From assembly GCF_023006325.1 (NCBI RefSeq), contig NZ_JAINDF010000002.1:186001-250000 (forward strand): a stretch of DNA of 64,000 nucleotides, written 5' to 3'. This document shows positions 1,046-53,898 of this stretch, in pieces. Position 1 is the stretch's first letter. Every line of letters starts with the position of its first letter. A program made the translations under genes and the position numbers. This DNA comes from Kordiimonas marina (lineage in GTDB: Bacteria > Pseudomonadota > Alphaproteobacteria > Sphingomonadales > Kordiimonadaceae). Under the pieces are notes generated by a model, which did no database searches, was not told the origin of the DNA, and worked only from the letters and a program-made list of their open reading frames with translations.

Positions 1046-2161
1046 CTAGTGGCTGTGGCTATGGCCGTGGTGGTGGATGTGCACTGTGGGCAACAGGACC
1101 GAAAAGAACTTGCGCGCGCCGGTGTGTATGAGGATCGCGCAGACGCACGCCAGCCACAGCGAGAACAGCACATAGCCCCCGGACGGCAGTTTGACATCGA
1201 AGGGCAGCAGTTCGACCACGAAGGCCGCCGCGATCCAGAGCGCAACAGTCCAGGGCGCGATTTTCTGCAGGCCGTGATAGCCGCCAACCACAAGCGTGCG
1301 CACCCCGGTGTCATGTGGCTGCTTGTAAAGCTGCAGGAGAATGCCGCCCGCGACCAGGATCAGCAGAAGCCCCGGTGCGATGAAGCGGCCGACCGCGGCA
1401 ATGGTATCGACGGCATGATAGGCGCCGTGCACCAGCGTCGTGTCGAGCGGTCCCGCGACGTGATAAAGATAATGGGCATAGATAAGCGCGGTCACGAACA
1501 GGATGCCGAGCGCGGTACCGACCCTGTGGGCGCGCATGGTCTCCGGCTTCGGGGCCGTGCTGTGGTGCTCCAGCGGGTGCAGGATGACATGGAGGAGCGA
1601 GCCCGCGGCGAACGCCTGCCAGTAGCCGATCAGCGGTACGCCCCACCAGTCGGAAGCAAAGATCGCCATCAGATAGCCGATCACGGTCATGGCGCCGAGC
1701 GCGGCCAGCACGGCGATGCCGCCGGTGGTCGTCAGCACGGGGCGCAAGAGCCACCACACGGCGATCGCGACACCGATCCGGTGCAACAGAACCCCGCCGG
1801 CCACAAAGTCCCCTTGCGGGCTGTTTTTGGCCAAGGCGAGGATGGCGCCGTCACTGGTGGCATGGACCACAAGCGCAAGGGCAGCGACCAGCATCACGAT
1901 ACGGTGCGTCGACTGTTCGGGCTTATGGAAGACGAATTCGGCAATCCAGGGCAATGAAAAGCCGAGGATGGCGATCATAAGGCCTAAGAGACCGGCGTGT
2001 TCCAGCGCTTCAGGCAGCAGGGTCAGCGTGATAAGCCCGAGCACGGTCATCAGTACGAATCCGTCCAGCCCGCCCTTAAGCGCAGGCATACGCGTCACCG
2101 CGCGCGCAAGCAACGGCGCGGCCAGAAGGACCAGGACGGACAGTATCAGGGCGTAATCCAA
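1046..2161 (-). CDS. ZIP-like polytopic membrane protein with His-rich tail
   Basis: 371 residues with many hydrophobic helices. Two segments look like the metal-binding helices of ZIP transporters: HATSDGAILAL in one helix and LLHRIGVAIAVWW in the next, matching the H-x3-D-G and H-x3-x-x-G spacing. The C-terminus ends in HIHHHGHSHSH, a typical zinc-binding tail. I infer a divalent metal (probably zinc) transporter of the inner membrane; direction is unproven. The start is TTG with an AAGGT ribosome site about nine bases upstream and no better start nearby. A 13-bp palindrome resembling a Zur box lies 34 bases upstream, which fits zinc control. Confidence 0.6.
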   Translation of the reverse strand: MDYALILSVLVLLAAPLLARAVTRMPALKGGLDGFVLMTVLGLITLTLLPEALEHAGLLGLMIAILGFSLPWIAEFVFHKPEQSTHRIVMLVAALALVVHATSDGAILALAKNSPQGDFVAGGVLLHRIGVAIAVWWLLRPVLTTTGGIAVLAALGAMTVIGYLMAIFASDWWGVPLIGYWQAFAAGSLLHVILHPLEHHSTAPKPETMRAHRVGTALGILFVTALIYAHYLYHVAGPLDTTLVHGAYHAVDTIAAVGRFIAPGLLLILVAGGILLQLYKQPHDTGVRTLVVGGYHGLQKIAPWTVALWIAAAFVVELLPFDVKLPSGGYVLFSLWLACVCAILIHTGARKFFSVLLPTVHIHHHGHSHSH

Positions 2162-2194
2162 AACAGATGACCTTAACGCAACATATGATGTACA

Positions 2195-2207
2195 GTTATA
2201 ATATCAC
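2195..2207. promoter_or_regulatory. Zur-like palindrome upstream of the ZIP-like gene
   Basis: GTTATAATATCAC is a 13-bp imperfect palindrome (one mismatched pair around a central A). Alphaproteobacterial Zur sites have a core close to GTTATAnTATAAC, so this differs by one base. It overlaps the likely -35 region (TTGTGA on the minus strand) of the metal transporter gene. The assignment is inference from motif and context. Confidence 0.4.
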
Positions 2208-2330
2208 AATATGGAAAGCCAACCTAAATCTTCAAGGGTGACGATTTTATCAGGCCTGAAGGCTGGCCGGTTTGCCCCGGTTTGAGCGCCTAATCCATGC
2301 GGAAACGGCGCCCCAGGTGGGGATTTCGTA

Positions 2331-2360
2331 AGAAAAAGGGGCGCCGCATGGGCACCCCTT
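2331..2360 (-). terminator. Intrinsic terminator of the FKBP lipoprotein gene
   Basis: A ten-pair stem (one G-U pair) between 2336-2345 and 2351-2360 with a five-base loop. Read on the minus strand it is followed by TTTCTT. It sits 30 bases past the stop of the tandem-FKBP gene. Confidence 0.75.
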
Positions 2361-2389
2361 CATAATCTTTATGGTTTTACCTGAATGAC

Positions 2390-3427
2390 TTAGCTGTCGA
2401 CCGAGATCAGCTCGACCGTGAAGATCAGCGTGGCGTAGGGCGGAATACCGGCGCCTGCGCCATGCTCGCCATACGCCAGGTCATACGGCAGGAAGAATTC
2501 ATATTTGCCGCCTTCTTTCATCAATTGCAGGCCTTCGGTCCAGCCTTTGATGACGCGGTCAAGCGGGAAGGAGGCCGGTTGGCCGCGCTTGTAGCTCGAA
2601 TCGAACACGGTGCCGTTGGTCAGCTTGCCTTCGTAATTCACCGTGACGTTGGACGTGGGGCTCGGCGATTTGCCGGTGCCTTCGGTGATGACCTTATACT
2701 GCAGCCCGCTGTCCGTAACGTGAACGCCGTCCTTCTTGGCATTTTCTTTCAGGAAGTCAGCCTGCTGGGTCTTGAACTTTTCCATCTGGACCTTGGCTTC
2801 GGCTTCAGCTGCCGCCATGTCTTTCACGCCCAGAAGCTCGACATCGAAGATCAGCGTCGAGTTCGGCGGGATGACATTGCCAGCGCCATGTTCGCCATAG
2901 GCGAGGTCAGCCGGGATGGTGATTTCCCATTTGTCGCCGACATGCATCATCTGCAGCGCTTCGATCCAGCCGGGGATCACGCGGCCAAGCTGGAACTGGG
3001 CCGGGCCGCCATGGCGTTCGCTGGCATCGAACACTTTACCGTCGATGGTGCGGCCTTCGTAAGAAACCTTGACGATGTCTTCCTTGGTCGGGCTTTTGCC
3101 GGACGCATCACCGGATTTCAGGACTTTATACTGCAGCCCGCTGTCGGTGACATGGACGCCGTCCTTGTCCTTGTTGGTTTCGAGATAGGCCTCGTTTTCC
3201 GCCTTGTAGGCGTCAGTGTCGGTCATGGATTTCGATACTTTCTGTTCCGGGGTGGTGGCGCCAGCCTGATTGTCGGCCGCCTTTTCGACCGGTTTTTCAG
3301 CTTGGGCCTCAGCTGCCGTTGTTTTATCGGCCGCTTTGTGGGACTGGTCCTCATCCTTCTTGCCACAGGCTGCCAGGGAGGCGCCGAAGGCGAGAAGAAG
3401 AACTGCCGTCTTGATTGAGCTTTGCAT
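2390..3427 (-). CDS. FKBP-type peptidyl-prolyl isomerase lipoprotein, two FKBP domains
   Basis: 345 residues beginning with a lipoprotein signal peptide; the lipobox LAAC puts the lipidated Cys at residue 21. A charged, alanine-rich linker follows, then two FKBP domains in tandem. Each is introduced by the same GVHVTDSGLQYKV segment and contains the YEG, FD(A/S)S, GW and AYGEHGAG motifs. It should catalyse proline cis-trans isomerisation of envelope proteins from a membrane anchor. The in-frame ORF extends further upstream, but the AAGGAAG ribosome site seven bases before this ATG and the signal peptide fix the start. Most bacterial FkpA/Mip proteins carry one domain, so the duplication is notable. 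Confidence 0.92.
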   Translation of the reverse strand: MQSSIKTAVLLLAFGASLAACGKKDEDQSHKAADKTTAAEAQAEKPVEKAADNQAGATTPEQKVSKSMTDTDAYKAENEAYLETNKDKDGVHVTDSGLQYKVLKSGDASGKSPTKEDIVKVSYEGRTIDGKVFDASERHGGPAQFQLGRVIPGWIEALQMMHVGDKWEITIPADLAYGEHGAGNVIPPNSTLIFDVELLGVKDMAAAEAEAKVQMEKFKTQQADFLKENAKKDGVHVTDSGLQYKVITEGTGKSPSPTSNVTVNYEGKLTNGTVFDSSYKRGQPASFPLDRVIKGWTEGLQLMKEGGKYEFFLPYDLAYGEHGAGAGIPPYATLIFTVELISVDS

Positions 3428-49775: not shown

Positions 49776-49847
49776 GCCCTTTAAGGGAAGGGCGCAAAAT
49801 ACCCCGTAGGGGACCGGATTTCGGTGGGGGTGTATTGGGAGAGTTTG

Positions 49848-51242
49848 ATGAGTTTTTCGCTGAATTCGATCCGTCTGGCCGGTAAGGACGTTCTGCCGCT
49901 TATTGAAGGCGGCAAGGGCGTTGCCATTTCGACCGGTGCGAGCTCCGGCCCATGGGCTGGCGCAGGCGGTATCGGTACCGTGTCCGCCGTCATTACCGAC
50001 GCGTATGACGAGCATGGCAATGTTATCCCGCATATCTACAATGGCCGCACCCGCCGGGAGCGCCATGAGGAAATGATCGACTTTTCGATCCGGGGCACCA
50101 TCGACCAGGTGCGCAAGGCGTGGGAGCTTTCCCGCGGTGAAGGTTTCATAAATATCAACATGCTGTGGGAGTTGGGCGGCGCCCAGCGCATCCTGCATGG
50201 TGTCTTGGAAAAGACCCGCGGCATGATCCACGGTGTGACCTGTGGCGCCGGTATGCCTTATAAGCTTGCCGAGCTCGCCCAGAAATACGGCGTGCATTAT
50301 TATCCGATCGTATCTTCCGGCCGCGCGTTCAACGCGCTGTGGAAGCGGGCTTACAAAAACGTCGCCGACCTTCTGGGCGGTGTCGTTTACGAAGACCCGT
50401 GGCTCGCCGGCGGTCATAACGGCCTCTCGAACGCCGAAGACCCGACCAAGCCGGGGGACCCGTACCCGCGTGTGCTTGAGCTCCGCAAGATCATGCGGTC
50501 GCTCGGGCTCGACCATGTGCCGATCATCATGGCCGGTGGCGTGTGGAACCTGAAGGAATGGAAAGACTGGATCGACAATAAAGAGCTCGGCCCGATCATG
50601 TTCCAGTTCGGTACCCGTCCGCTCTTAACGAAGGAAAGCCCGATTTCCGACCGCTGGAAGAAGAAGCTCATGGACCTGAAACCGGGTGACGTGCTTCTGC
50701 AGAACTTCAGCCCGACCGGCTTTTTCTCGTCGGCGATCAAGAACCGCTTCCTGGGTGAACTGGTGGGCCGCAACGAGCGCCAGATCGAGTTCCGCACCGA
50801 GAAGGATGAGGACTTCAACGCTGAGCTGACGGTCGACCGCAAGACCTATATCGTCCGCCGCGAAGACCTGGGCAAAGCCGAAGCCTGGATCCGTGAAGGC
50901 TATGAGCGCGCGCTCAAGACCCCGGACAACAGCATCATTTTCGTCGACGCCGAAAAATGCGCCGAAATCCGCAAGGATCAGGCCGATTGTGTCGGCTGTC
51001 TAAGCCAGTGCCGCTTCTCGGCCTGGGCGGACAACGAAAAGAACAGCAGTGGCCGCCTGGCCGACCCGCGCAGCTTCTGTATCCAGAAGACGCTGGATGA
51101 TGTGGCGCACGAAGGCTCGATTGACGACAACCTCGTCTTCGCCGGTCACAACGCCTTCCGCTTCGCGCGCGACCCCTTCTATTCGAACGGCTTCATCCCG
51201 ACAGTGAAGCAGCTCGTCGACCGGATCGTCACCGGCGACTAA
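49848..51242 (+). CDS. Nitronate monooxygenase family protein with Cys-rich tail
   Basis: 464 residues with an FMN-binding TIM barrel of the nitronate monooxygenase/2-nitropropane dioxygenase type: GAGGIGTVSAV near the start, MIHGVTCGAGMP, GGHNG, IIMAGGVWN and MFQFGTRPLLT. Beyond the usual barrel, a tail of about 150 residues has Cys371, Cys381, Cys384, Cys388 and Cys411 (DCVGCLSQC), an arrangement that may hold an iron-sulfur or zinc site. GGGAGAG precedes the ATG. The substrate is unknown. It stands alone between terminators. Confidence 0.87.
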   Translation: MSFSLNSIRLAGKDVLPLIEGGKGVAISTGASSGPWAGAGGIGTVSAVITDAYDEHGNVIPHIYNGRTRRERHEEMIDFSIRGTIDQVRKAWELSRGEGFININMLWELGGAQRILHGVLEKTRGMIHGVTCGAGMPYKLAELAQKYGVHYYPIVSSGRAFNALWKRAYKNVADLLGGVVYEDPWLAGGHNGLSNAEDPTKPGDPYPRVLELRKIMRSLGLDHVPIIMAGGVWNLKEWKDWIDNKELGPIMFQFGTRPLLTKESPISDRWKKKLMDLKPGDVLLQNFSPTGFFSSAIKNRFLGELVGRNERQIEFRTEKDEDFNAELTVDRKTYIVRREDLGKAEAWIREGYERALKTPDNSIIFVDAEKCAEIRKDQADCVGCLSQCRFSAWADNEKNSSGRLADPRSFCIQKTLDDVAHEGSIDDNLVFAGHNAFRFARDPFYSNGFIPTVKQLVDRIVTGD

Positions 51243-51261: not shown

Positions 51262-51293
51262 AAAAAAGGCGGGGCCTCGGCTCCGCCTTTTTT
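51262..51293. terminator. Bidirectional terminator between NMO and GNAT genes
   Basis: The stem ggcggggcc/ggctccgcc (one G-T wobble) is flanked by six A and six T, so it can terminate transcripts from both sides: nitronate monooxygenase (plus) and the acetyltransferase operon (minus). Confidence 0.85.
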
Positions 51294-51311: not shown

Positions 51312-51779
51312 TCAAAAGTCTTCAAGCGCCCGCTTCATGTAAACCACGTCGGCTTCGGGGTTGAAGTTGTAGGGCTCGATGTCCTCGAAGCCGAGCTTGC
51401 GGTAGAGCGCGACGGCGGCCTCCAGCCGTTCCAGGCTATCGAGCAGCATGGTCTGGAAACCGAACGCTTTGGCGTCCGTCATCAGGCGCTCGCAAATCTT
51501 GCGGCCCGCGCCGGTGCCTTGCGCTTCCGGCAGCACATAAAGCCGCTTCATTTCGCACACGCCGTCCCCGAGGTCCCGGAGGGCGACGGCGCCCACGGGT
51601 TTGCCGTCCAGCTTGGCCAATAGCACATGGACGAAACCTTCGGGGAAGCGCGCCATTTCACCCTCAAAATCCTGGAAGCCAAGGTCGATGGGCAGCCACT
51701 CGGAAAAGGCGCGGAAGATTTCCTTGGCGGCGGCCAGGTCTTCCGTGCTTTCAGCTTTTTCTATGGTCAAGTCCGTCAT
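51312..51779 (-). CDS. GNAT family N-acetyltransferase
   Basis: 155 residues with the GNAT pattern: MKRLYVLPEAQGTGAGRKICERL (acetyl-CoA loop), MLLDSLERLEAAVALYRKLGFEDIEPY. The substrate is unknown. The start ATG overlaps the upstream gene's stop (ATGA). It is the third gene of a minus-strand operon with another GNAT gene and a MarR-GNAT fusion. It is clearly less similar to those two than they are to each other. Confidence 0.92.
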   Translation of the reverse strand: MTDLTIEKAESTEDLAAAKEIFRAFSEWLPIDLGFQDFEGEMARFPEGFVHVLLAKLDGKPVGAVALRDLGDGVCEMKRLYVLPEAQGTGAGRKICERLMTDAKAFGFQTMLLDSLERLEAAVALYRKLGFEDIEPYNFNPEADVVYMKRALEDF

Positions 51780-52294
51780 GATGGTCGCCACTCCATATAA
51801 CAATCGGTGCCTTCATACTCGTCTGCACCGGGGTTTTTCGTGAGCCTGAAGTCCAGGGCCTCGTAAAGATGCATCGCCGGCTTCAGTTTGGTGTGGGTTT
51901 CCAGAAAGAGACGCACACCGTCGGGCTGGGCCTTATACCAGTCGATGACGGCTTGGCACAGTTTGCGGCCGATGCCATAGCCTTGCGCCGCAGGGTCGAC
52001 GCCCAGCTTGGTTAGCTCGTAGGCGCCGCCGCCGTCCGCGCGTACCGCAACGGTGCCGACGGGCTTGCCGTCCAGAAGTGCGAAGAAAATCTCACCGCCC
52101 TTGGCGATAATCTCCCCTTCCGGGTCGCGGAGCACCTTCAGATGCACGGGCTCAACTGTGAAATATTTTTCAAGCCAGGCGAGGTTAAGGTCATGAAAGG
52201 CCTGGCGGTGCACAGGGGCGTACGGCACAAGGCTGACGGTCCCGCGCCCGGCCAGGCGACTGCCTTCAGGCTGCTTCGGTCGTGCGGTCGGCAT
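51776..52294 (-). CDS. GNAT family N-acetyltransferase, paralogue of the adjacent fusion's GNAT domain
   Basis: 172 residues. FFALLDGKPVGTVAV, ELTKLGVDPAAQGYGIGRKLC and LFLETHTKLKPAMHLYEALDF form the GNAT core. The stretch from DLNLAWLEKYF to the C-terminus aligns closely with the acetyltransferase half of the MarR-GNAT protein encoded just upstream, so one arose by local duplication. GGGAGG precedes the ATG, which lies inside the end of the fusion gene (28-base overlap). Confidence 0.92.
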   Translation of the reverse strand: MPTARPKQPEGSRLAGRGTVSLVPYAPVHRQAFHDLNLAWLEKYFTVEPVHLKVLRDPEGEIIAKGGEIFFALLDGKPVGTVAVRADGGGAYELTKLGVDPAAQGYGIGRKLCQAVIDWYKAQPDGVRLFLETHTKLKPAMHLYEALDFRLTKNPGADEYEGTDCYMEWRPS

Positions 52295-53243
52295 TGCGGC
52301 CCTCCCATTCCATATAATAGTTGGCACGCTCATAAGGGCTGGGCGCGGGCGGCTCCTTGGCGACGAAATTCAGGGTTTCATACAGCCGGATCGCGGGCTT
52401 GAGGACCGTGTTGGTCTCGAGGAACAGCAGCGTGCCGCCGCGGGCCTCGAACCGGCGGATGACTTCCTCGCACAGCGCCCGGCCCATGCCGCCGCCCTGT
52501 GCCGTGGGGTCGACGCCCAGCTTGGTCAGCTCGAACACGCCTTCCGAGGTCGGCTTCAAGGCCACGGTGCCGACGGCCCGGCCGTCCCGGATTGCGAAGA
52601 ATATCTCGCCGCCCTTGGCGAGAATCTGGCTTTCGGGGTCACTGAGCACGGTTTCATCGATGGGTTCGATGACGAAATATTTCTTCAGCCAGTCGACATT
52701 GAGGTCATAGAAAGCCTGCCGGTATTTGACGTCAAACGGTTCAATGGTGAAGGGCGCAGGCTGGCCCGCGGCCAACTTCTCACTGGCGCGGGCATACAGT
52801 CCCTTGTTGGCAAGGCTTGTCTCCAGTCCGGTGATGCCGGCCAGAATGTCGGCGCCGCTTTCCTCGACCGCTTCCTTGACCGCACCTTCGAGGGCTGCCC
52901 ACAAAGGGGTGCTGCGCTTCACGATTTCCGCGCCTTTTTCGGTGAAGCCGATCACCTTCTGGCGCGCGTCATCACCAGGCTCAGCCTCCAGATAACCAAG
53001 ACTGATCAGCTTCTTCACCGTCTGGCTGACGGCCGAATGGGAAAAACCGGCGAGCCGGGCAATATCGCTGATCGGCATGGCACCGCGCTCGGCCAGGGCA
53101 TAGACCACATAGAAATAGCTGGCCTTGAAGTCCATCCCGGCTTCTGCGTAAAGCCGTTCGGCATCGGTGCTGAGGGTTTCCAGGAGGCGGCGCATCCGCG
53201 TGCCGAGTCCCAGTTCGAAATATAACTCGTTAGACGACTGCAT
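52266..53243 (-). CDS. Bifunctional MarR-type regulator / GNAT acetyltransferase
   Basis: 325 residues. Residues 1-150 are a MarR winged helix (ISDIARLAGFSHSAVSQTVKKLISLGYLE, then RQKVIGFTEKG). Residues 160-318 are a GNAT domain (FFAIRDGRAVGTVAL, KLGVDPTAQGGGMGRALC, FLETNTVLKPAIRLYETLNF). Such fusions may sense or modify the same metabolite they regulate by. It heads the operon with two more acetyltransferases. Palindromes in the upstream 50 bases suggest self-regulation. The ATG precedes MQSSNELYFELGLGTRM; the ribosome site is GGGGGGAT in reverse, about seven bases away. Confidence 0.92.
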   Translation of the reverse strand: MQSSNELYFELGLGTRMRRLLETLSTDAERLYAEAGMDFKASYFYVVYALAERGAMPISDIARLAGFSHSAVSQTVKKLISLGYLEAEPGDDARQKVIGFTEKGAEIVKRSTPLWAALEGAVKEAVEESGADILAGITGLETSLANKGLYARASEKLAAGQPAPFTIEPFDVKYRQAFYDLNVDWLKKYFVIEPIDETVLSDPESQILAKGGEIFFAIRDGRAVGTVALKPTSEGVFELTKLGVDPTAQGGGMGRALCEEVIRRFEARGGTLLFLETNTVLKPAIRLYETLNFVAKEPPAPSPYERANYYMEWEGRNADRTTEAA

Positions 53244-53252
53244 GGGGGGATC

Positions 53253-53290
53253 CTTACATCATACTATGCAAGAAATTATGTAAGTACTTA
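53253..53290. promoter_or_regulatory. Palindromic operator region of the MarR-GNAT operon
   Basis: CTTACAT (53253-53259) is repeated inverted as ATGTAAG (53278-53284), and TAAGTACTTA (53281-53290) is a perfect ten-base palindrome. CATACTATG at 53258-53266 is a further palindrome. The AT-rich palindromes immediately upstream of a MarR gene are the usual kind of MarR-family operator. Confidence 0.6.
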
Positions 53291-53345
53291 TATAAACCGG
53301 TCAATCAAAATAATCTGACGCTCAGATAAGCGATATTTGTCTGTG

Positions 53346-53390
53346 GGAAAAAGCGTGGAAATCCATCAGGAATGCAGGATTTCCGCGCTT
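53346..53390 (-). terminator. Terminator of the SH3-domain gene, overlapping its stop
   Basis: A 14-pair stem (53351-53364 with 53377-53390, one G-U pair) with a 12-base loop; on the minus strand it ends in CGCTTTTTCCC. The TAA stop of the gene forms the base of the stem. Confidence 0.8.
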
Positions 53391-53898
53391 ATTTGAACTC
53401 TTCGCGCGGGAAGACACCCCAGAGGTACTTGCGCTCGGTCCAGGCCTTGGTGCCATCGATCTCAAGCCGGCACCAAGTACCCTGGCAGGCGAGCAGGTCC
53501 CCGATAACCCCCGGGTCCGCGGTCAGGCGCAGGGGCGAGCGTGGGTCCGGGTCGGCATACAGCTTATGCATCCGGCCCGTGATCATCGCGGTCCGGTGCC
53601 CGGTCAGTAGGGTCACGTGAATCCAGCCGGTAGCGCCGTCGATATCCTTGACCTGGCGCCAGGGGCCATCTTCGTCCACCACCTCGAACGGTAGCCCCTT
53701 GAGGGTATAGACCCATTCGATCGGATACTGGCGGCCGGGGCCTGTGCGCATATAGGCCTTCTCGGCGTGAAGCGAAACATAGCGTGGCAGCGGTGCGCCG
53801 CTTGGCCCTGTGGTCGCGGCCGATGATGGCAGGGCGCTAACGCTAGAGAGTAGGCTAAAGGTCAGGATCAGTGAAAAAATGCTGAAAAAGCGCCGCAT
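53389..53898 (-). CDS. Exported SH3 domain-containing protein
   Basis: 169 residues with a signal peptide (residues 1-28) and two SH3-like beta repeats (DUF1058 type): YMRTGPGRQYPIEWVYTLKGLPFEVV and HKLYADPDPRSPLRLTADPGVIGDLLACQGTWCRLEIDG. Trp-containing turns (GPWRQVKD, TEWKYL-like) fit the fold. It probably binds cell wall or other proteins in the periplasm. No enzyme motif. The stop codon is within the terminator stem. Confidence 0.87.
   Translation of the reverse strand: MRRFFSIFSLILTFSLLSSVSALPSSAATTGPSGAPLPRYVSLHAEKAYMRTGPGRQYPIEWVYTLKGLPFEVVDEDGPWRQVKDIDGATGWIHVTLLTGHRTAMITGRMHKLYADPDPRSPLRLTADPGVIGDLLACQGTWCRLEIDGTKAWTERKYLWGVFPREEFK

Follow-up and report, generated by a model that had tools for sequence, protein, structure and literature searches.

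The stretch of DNA examined here (the window) comprises 64,000 nucleotides of Kordiimonas marina, and at 51312-53243 it holds three adjoining minus-strand genes, here called A, B and C in operon order, whose open reading frames and Pfam matches confirm what an initial annotation had described, namely an operon of three GNAT acetyltransferases headed by a MarR-GNAT fusion (Table 1). The Pfam family Acetyltransf_1 scores above its cutoff in A, B and C alike, and in A this match (2.5e-14, residues 203-293) is preceded by one to MarR_2 (8e-10, residues 39-94; 39.2 bits against a cutoff of 27), PF01047 MarR falling slightly below its own cutoff (24.2 against 24.6 bits). A was found to contain a MarR winged helix-turn-helix, and the A2 profile is also matched by solved MarR proteins; with helix-turn-helix and GNAT in a single chain A is a protein of the kind that NCBI names bifunctional HTH/GNAT. 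An AlphaFold2 model of A, built from a 4-row alignment (mean pLDDT 70.5, pTM 0.48), consists of a MarR-like and a GNAT-like part and has a GNAT fold, with Z up to 20.7 against solved folds.

Table 1. Genes and sequence features of the operon and its flanks
Feature	Position	Strand	Description
A, MarR-GNAT fusion	52266-53243	minus	325 aa; MarR about residues 5-150, GNAT about 167-314 (family-profile bounds)
B, GNAT	51776-52294	minus	172 aa; Pfam; old duplicate of A's GNAT half, judged by sequence
C, GNAT of different branch	51312-51779	minus	155 aa; Pfam
Terminator-like hairpin	51266-51278	minus	consensus scan; between operon and convergent gene 49824-51242
Predicted operator	53276-53295, 18-bp core 53277-53294	–	TTATATAAGTACTTACATAA as read on the minus strand; upstream of A
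Promoter-like site	TTGACC 53304-53299, 18-base spacer, CATAAT 53280-53275	minus	overlaps predicted operator

There are three candidate starts for B (ATG 52333, a GTG and ATG 52294), and the last was chosen, the mechanical open reading frame running from 52333; GGGAGGG lies directly upstream of the chosen ATG. With this start A shares 29 bases with B, where 28 had been given at first, and the ATGA junction with the third gene is a 4-base overlap of B and C, as described. The terminator scan returned four candidates in the region where shuffles gave 2.7, a difference that is not significant. Upstream of the operon (53389-53898, minus strand) is a gene for an SH3_4 bacterial SH3-domain protein (9.7e-26), relatives of which occur in 10 of 33 neighbourhoods compared.

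Duplication and divergence of the acetyltransferases

The likeness between the GNAT half of A and the protein that follows it, including the shared segments AKGGEIFFA and ELTKLGVDP, had been pointed out in the initial annotation and is borne out by 81 identities in 149 positions and a local score of 419, shuffled sequences averaging 33 with a maximum of 55 (n=200). Comparisons of A with C (33/85 identical, score 143) and of B with C (44/124, score 148) are above shuffles but far weaker, which places C outside the duplication. A tree built from 68 GNAT domains places B in a single clade (n=14, support 100/98) drawn from two genera, which implies one duplication early in the family, and C in one clade of its own (support 100/100). 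The phylogeny that had been proposed as a check thus, on sequence evidence, makes B one old duplicate of A's GNAT half and C a different GNAT from another branch. Amongst A domains that are not fused to MarR, those of G009, G023 and G027 nest inside the fused-A clade, that of G025 groups with the fusions of family f8 on a long branch and is of unsure placement, and that of G029 lies outside on a long branch. The G009 locus (L054, G009:C167) has an A-clade free copy where B would stand, suggesting a second, separate duplication or an exchange. The fused A of this same locus is unusually diverged, with 48% identity to the window's A.

Wherever both rates could be measured at modest divergence by the NG86 method, estimates that were saturated or failed being left out, dN was well below dS, examples being 0.050 against 0.565 for B in the pair G010/G014, and 0.028 against 0.236 for A and 0.039 against 0.375 for B in G028/G021. 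For C the sole unsaturated pair was G012/G016, with dN 0.0 and dS 0.035. Residues E238, K241, G252, G254 and Y288 are kept in all 28 fused A and all 14 B, and C has E238, G254 and Y288 in 21/21 and G252 in 19/21. From the alignment to RimI we take E276 and Y288 to be the positions of the RimI catalytic Glu and Tyr. Judged by these features and the Pfam matches, A, B and C each belong to the GNAT superfamily by fold, acetyl-CoA loop and catalytic residues.

A different pattern is seen at three other positions. D196 is kept in 88/88 sequences (28/28 fused A, 5/5 MarR-less A, 30/30 distant and 25/25 further relatives) and R306 in 87/88 (28/28, 5/5, 29/30 and 25/25 respectively), N278 being looser at 79/88 (27/28, 5/5, 24/30 and 23/25). 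In B, however, position 196 is H in 14/14, position 306 is G in 12/14 and C in 2/14, and position 278 is H in 12/14 and N in 2/14. The model of A has D196 in helix 194-201, N278 immediately after strand 272-277, which bears E276, and R306 in the loop preceding strand 309-313. The helix, the end of the strand and the loop presumably line the acceptor site, a placement that draws on the secondary structure of the model, the alignment to RimI and general GNAT anatomy. As D196 and R306 are replaced while pairwise dN/dS stays low, B appears to be an enzyme whose acceptor pocket has changed. The initial annotation had described B as a free copy of the fused enzyme and suggested a unit acting on one small molecule, a view that loss of GNAT pocket residues in one or both copies would count against. 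In B the acetyl-CoA and catalytic residues are indeed kept, but those at the probable substrate side, D196 and R306, are lost; neither the label of free copy nor the single small molecule is supported, C coming moreover from another GNAT branch. It could still be argued that the fusion and B share one molecule and that B just raises enzyme dose in one loop, given the 81 identities and the fact that all checked catalytic and acetyl-CoA positions are common to A and B; set against the replacement of two otherwise near-invariant residues throughout the B clade, and of N278 in 12/14, this seems unlikely. A bolder guess would be that the invariant Asp and Arg of the pocket fit an acceptor that bears an amine together with a carboxylate, and that the loss of the two residues in B fits an acceptor lacking this pair of groups.

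Assignment of a substrate from sequence or fold was attempted and abandoned, as the NCBIfam models were below their cutoffs and the fold neighbours mixed. The named acetyltransferases of NCBIfam (RimI, ArsN1, PaiA and others) reached no more than 33, 31 and 32.5 bits where the cutoffs are 86.4, 86.4 and 170, no NCBIfam equivalog reached its cutoff for A, B or C, and several of the solved relatives found by sequence are titled just "putative acetyltransferase". The fold neighbours of A include protein and small-molecule enzymes at close Z, and it is therefore conceivable that the GNAT half acetylates a protein (A itself, or another N-terminus or lysine) and not a small molecule. RimI, Ard1, HP0935 and NatC all stand in the top rows of the nearest solved folds, and acetylation of K73 of SlyA, a lysine in a MarR-family protein, is reported to block DNA binding (PMC11254643). 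Phosphinothricin acetyltransferases and PaiA, however, appear at similar Z in the same list, with nothing to separate both kinds, and we regard acetylation of a protein as improbable.

There are also cases in which two of the GNATs have become one protein. MarR, A and C form a single 501-aa chain in G004, B and C are fused in G011, and A and C are fused without MarR in G023 and G025, the GNAT-GNAT linkers being 18 to 42 aa long. The tree of C indicates that the fusions of G004 and G011 were separate events and that G023 and G025 may share one; the G004 assembly is a draft of 170 contigs, those of G011, G023 and G025 having 1 to 10. Unfused A, B and C genes mostly overlap by a few bases, which makes fusion an easy mutation. 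The fusions show that joining is tolerated and hint at joint work, and nothing further.

The predicted operator and the MarR domain

The promoter-like site upstream of A matches the consensus at 10 of 12 positions, and with one found against a mean of 0.7 in shuffles it is by itself near chance. It overlaps a palindrome that fits all 16 core positions of the pattern TATRTAAS-NN-STTAYATA, a fit equalled in 0/200 shuffles. This pattern is an 18-mer with 16 scored positions, was sought in about 120 bases and was fixed after the first loci had been seen. When the 3.68-Mb genome of the window was searched with the 20-mer allowing up to 3 mismatches the promoter of A was the sole site and a reversed control had none; a looser search with the 18-mer at up to 2 mismatches gave one extra site (2 mismatches) against five for the control, the A promoter remaining the only mismatch-free site. 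The 20-mer search was also run on 19 further chosen genomes. Fifteen of the genomes searched carry a fused A; in 14 of these, G008 being the exception, the promoter of A has a site, and in 11 there is no other. Sites elsewhere were found in G008, G011, G020, G021 and the MarR-less G027, but little weight can be given to single extra sites, as 10 of the 20 genomes have sites for the reversed control as well. Beyond the genus the 20-mer proves too narrow, missing the A promoter of G008.

An important consideration is whether the palindrome goes with the MarR domain. A match of at least 14/16 was found upstream of 23 of 28 MarR-first genes of the window's family and f8 (24 and 4 respectively) and of 14 of the 16 drawn from other families and classes, the f8 members first examined and G008 fitting at just 12 or 13 of 16. 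Amongst GNAT genes lacking MarR none of 19 reached 14/16 (14 distant, best 13; five in the order, 9 to 11). A further 25 loci were fetched later and held out (nine from f5, 12 from f8 and four MarR-less), but the families were partly represented in the first set and the test is thus not independent in ancestry. At least 14 positions were matched by 11/21 of the held-out MarR-first genes and at least 13 by 20/21: those of f5 scored 13 or 14, with at most 1/200 shuffles as good, and those of the AT-rich f8 scored 12 to 15, values that between 0 and 56 shuffles in 200 equalled. The MarR-less loci scored 10 to 12, 0/4 reaching 13. The genomes G020 and G027 belong to the same genus and have the gene at the same chromosomal place; G020 has both MarR and palindrome and G027 neither. 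These observations tie the palindrome to the presence of the MarR domain and point to self-regulation, as far as DNA sequence can do so.

Two further observations concern the sites themselves. A palindrome with 3 mismatches (G021:C1:3331315-3331334) lies just before a separate MarR-like gene (3331352-3331717) whose product has 32% identity to the MarR half of A, and this stand-alone relative may use a similar site. In several of the f5 promoters (L149-L154) what seem to be tandem palindromes overlap one another (in L149, for instance, CCATATCACGTTATATAACACGATATGG), and such an arrangement may allow the binding of two dimers.

Conservation and distribution

All 29 genomes of the window's family were searched. 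A full-length fused A is present in 24 of them, G023, G025 and G027 have A without MarR, and no A-type match was found in G022 and G024. The B-clade gene is present in 14/29 and missing in 15/29, and C adjoins or is fused to A or B in 20/29 and is missing from that place in nine, so that neither B nor C would appear to be needed for the unit. A, B-clade B and C occur together in 9/29, including G011 with its B-C fusion. Conservation of the trio, which the initial annotation had offered as a check, therefore holds in the sense that the genes recur together in the family, but their content varies. Free GNATs do come after A in most family genomes, and a fusion of sensor and DNA-binding domain would be enough for control, which makes it conceivable that the GNAT half of A is a mere sensor of acetyl-CoA or a ligand and that B and C do the chemistry. 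This has little probability in our view, as E238, Y288, G252 and G254 are kept in every one of the fused A, and neither B nor C accompanies the fused A of G019, of G026 and of the first four f8 genomes studied.

The surroundings of the operon were compared by means of four landmarks, a nitronate-monooxygenase-like gene (Pfam) and three genes identified by eye, which we recognise as presumably 2-hydroxyacid dehydrogenase, lepA and pnp. At least one landmark lies in the fetched stretch at 22 of 27 family loci with an A-type gene, from which the operon looks old and vertically kept. None was seen in the stretches from G009, G012, G016, G020 and G025; genes of AT-rich genomes can escape the simple gene caller used, and the G009 contig has 5856 bases. 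On the same landmarks a mobile element was rejected. The neighbours kept at the locus look like housekeeping genes and point to no pathway. Beside the four f8 fusions first examined, which are of the same order, there was no adjoining second GNAT of these types and no landmark, and relatives of C outside the family, in the stretches compared from seven other genomes of the order, were not beside the window's other neighbours, save for a weak dehydrogenase match in G039.

Beyond the family the A2 profile was run at 1e-30 on a phylum sample of 398 genomes and matched in 30, of which three belong to the window's family; the other 27 and three from a class sample make up the 30 distant loci examined, in which there are 15 MarR-GNAT fusions and 15 GNATs with no MarR detected in the chain. 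One of the latter (L109, G657:C11:163436-164363) has MarR and GNAT as separate genes that share a few bases, a 15/16 palindrome lying upstream, and it is possible that this pair represents either the state before fusion or a split. For the remaining 14 no MarR was found in the same or a neighbouring gene when 1.5-kb flanks were scanned. Within the class two overlapping samples gave the fusion in 4 genomes out of 288 others at 1e-25 and in 5 out of 384 at 1e-45, and within the order 59 of 246 genomes, the window's family included, matched at 1e-45, some without MarR. A Sphingomonas plasmid protein named bifunctional HTH/GNAT by NCBI aligns at 33% identity to 86% of the length of A. Solved chains matching A2 number 104, and in each of the best 60 the best stretch is confined to one domain. 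In L100 (G574, ORF 1486-2874, minus strand) an A-type GNAT occupies residues 310-458, at the C-terminal end, of a 462-aa frame in which there was no MarR match.

The pairing of a GNAT with a DNA-binding domain raises the idea of a toxin-antitoxin module merged into a single chain, GNAT toxins with RHH or HTH-Xre antitoxins being described in the literature (PMC9561280). Vertical inheritance, as indicated by the landmarks kept at 22/27 loci, and the 14 distant relatives that have no MarR alongside make this very improbable indeed, and there was no PADLOC match, PADLOC being no toxin-antitoxin library. The same search returned no match for phage defence.

A proposed self-limiting operon and its known relatives

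The gene order, the overlaps, the link between palindrome and MarR, the single good site, the catalytic residues and the changes in B were all read from sequence, and the best-supported reading of them, which we hold with moderate confidence, is that of a self-limiting, autorepressed acetylation operon. MarR proteins usually act as repressors at promoter sites, and this behaviour, together with the position of the palindrome over the promoter, makes A a probable repressor of its own transcription. Its MarR half would bind the palindrome over the -35/-10 region as a dimer and so repress the operon that A heads. A small molecule would release it, the simplest candidate being whatever the GNAT half of A itself acetylates, or a similar compound, whereupon A, B and C would be made together through overlapping translation and would acetylate their acceptors, repression returning as the inducer was consumed. 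A would retain the residues that mark the pocket across MarR-GNAT proteins at large, B would be the old duplicate with a changed acceptor pocket, and C would add an unrelated GNAT activity, the three perhaps working in one pathway. The notion of a feedback unit made of a regulator and its enzyme, already present in the initial annotation, thus gains from the conserved MarR-linked palindrome, which suggests self-regulation, but not in the form of a unit confined to one small molecule.

A wider proposal, which we advance tentatively and at somewhat less than an even chance, is that MarR-GNAT proteins constitute a self-controlled class throughout the phylum, each acting via TATRTAAS-NN-STTAYATA chiefly to repress the promoter of its own gene and sensing the acceptor by or near the catalytic pocket, and that the cassette of the window's family arose by duplication, recruitment and fusions. 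If this is true, then in this family a single duplication of the enzyme half was followed by changes at the same positions in the acceptor pocket of all the duplicates, a GNAT of unrelated origin was taken in, and GNATs joined one another more than once. A predicted operator common to several families and three positions that separate A from B make an anonymous annotation testable, and bear on whether one protein can serve as sensor, repressor and enzyme for one compound whilst its duplicate has moved to another.

MarR-GNAT fusions are an already known, annotated kind of protein present in many genomes, although the NCBI name bifunctional HTH/GNAT is an automatic annotation that says nothing on tested function. 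A search of the open-licence literature found no study of a characterised MarR-GNAT fusion among the matches listed, as judged by titles and the openings of abstracts. A gene for a "bifunctional HTH regulator/GNAT" is described as exclusive to Cutibacterium acnes phylotype IA1, where it occurs with cadmium genes (PMC13295564). The NCBI proteins share with A the arrangement of MarR then GNAT in a chain of about 320 aa, but the window's fusion heads an operon with a diverged GNAT duplicate and a further GNAT. In Pseudomonas aeruginosa the MarR protein PA3458 negatively regulates the PA3459-PA3461 operon, which holds a GNAT gene; this is a system of separate divergent genes with more than 300 binding sites, the motif TTTCAG//TTGGAA and the product NAGGN (PMC8070244), whereas the window has a fused chain and one good predicted site. 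The GNAT-RHH and GNAT-Xre toxin-antitoxin pairs are alike in having a GNAT beside a DNA-binding partner (PMC9561280), but here the partner is MarR, not RHH or Xre, the two are in one chain and the locus appears to be vertically kept. Finally, class III acetyltransferases, as defined by Christensen et al. and quoted in PMC11254643, have two GNAT domains like the A-C and B-C fusions of G004, G011, G023 and G025; the window's own three GNATs are on separate chains.
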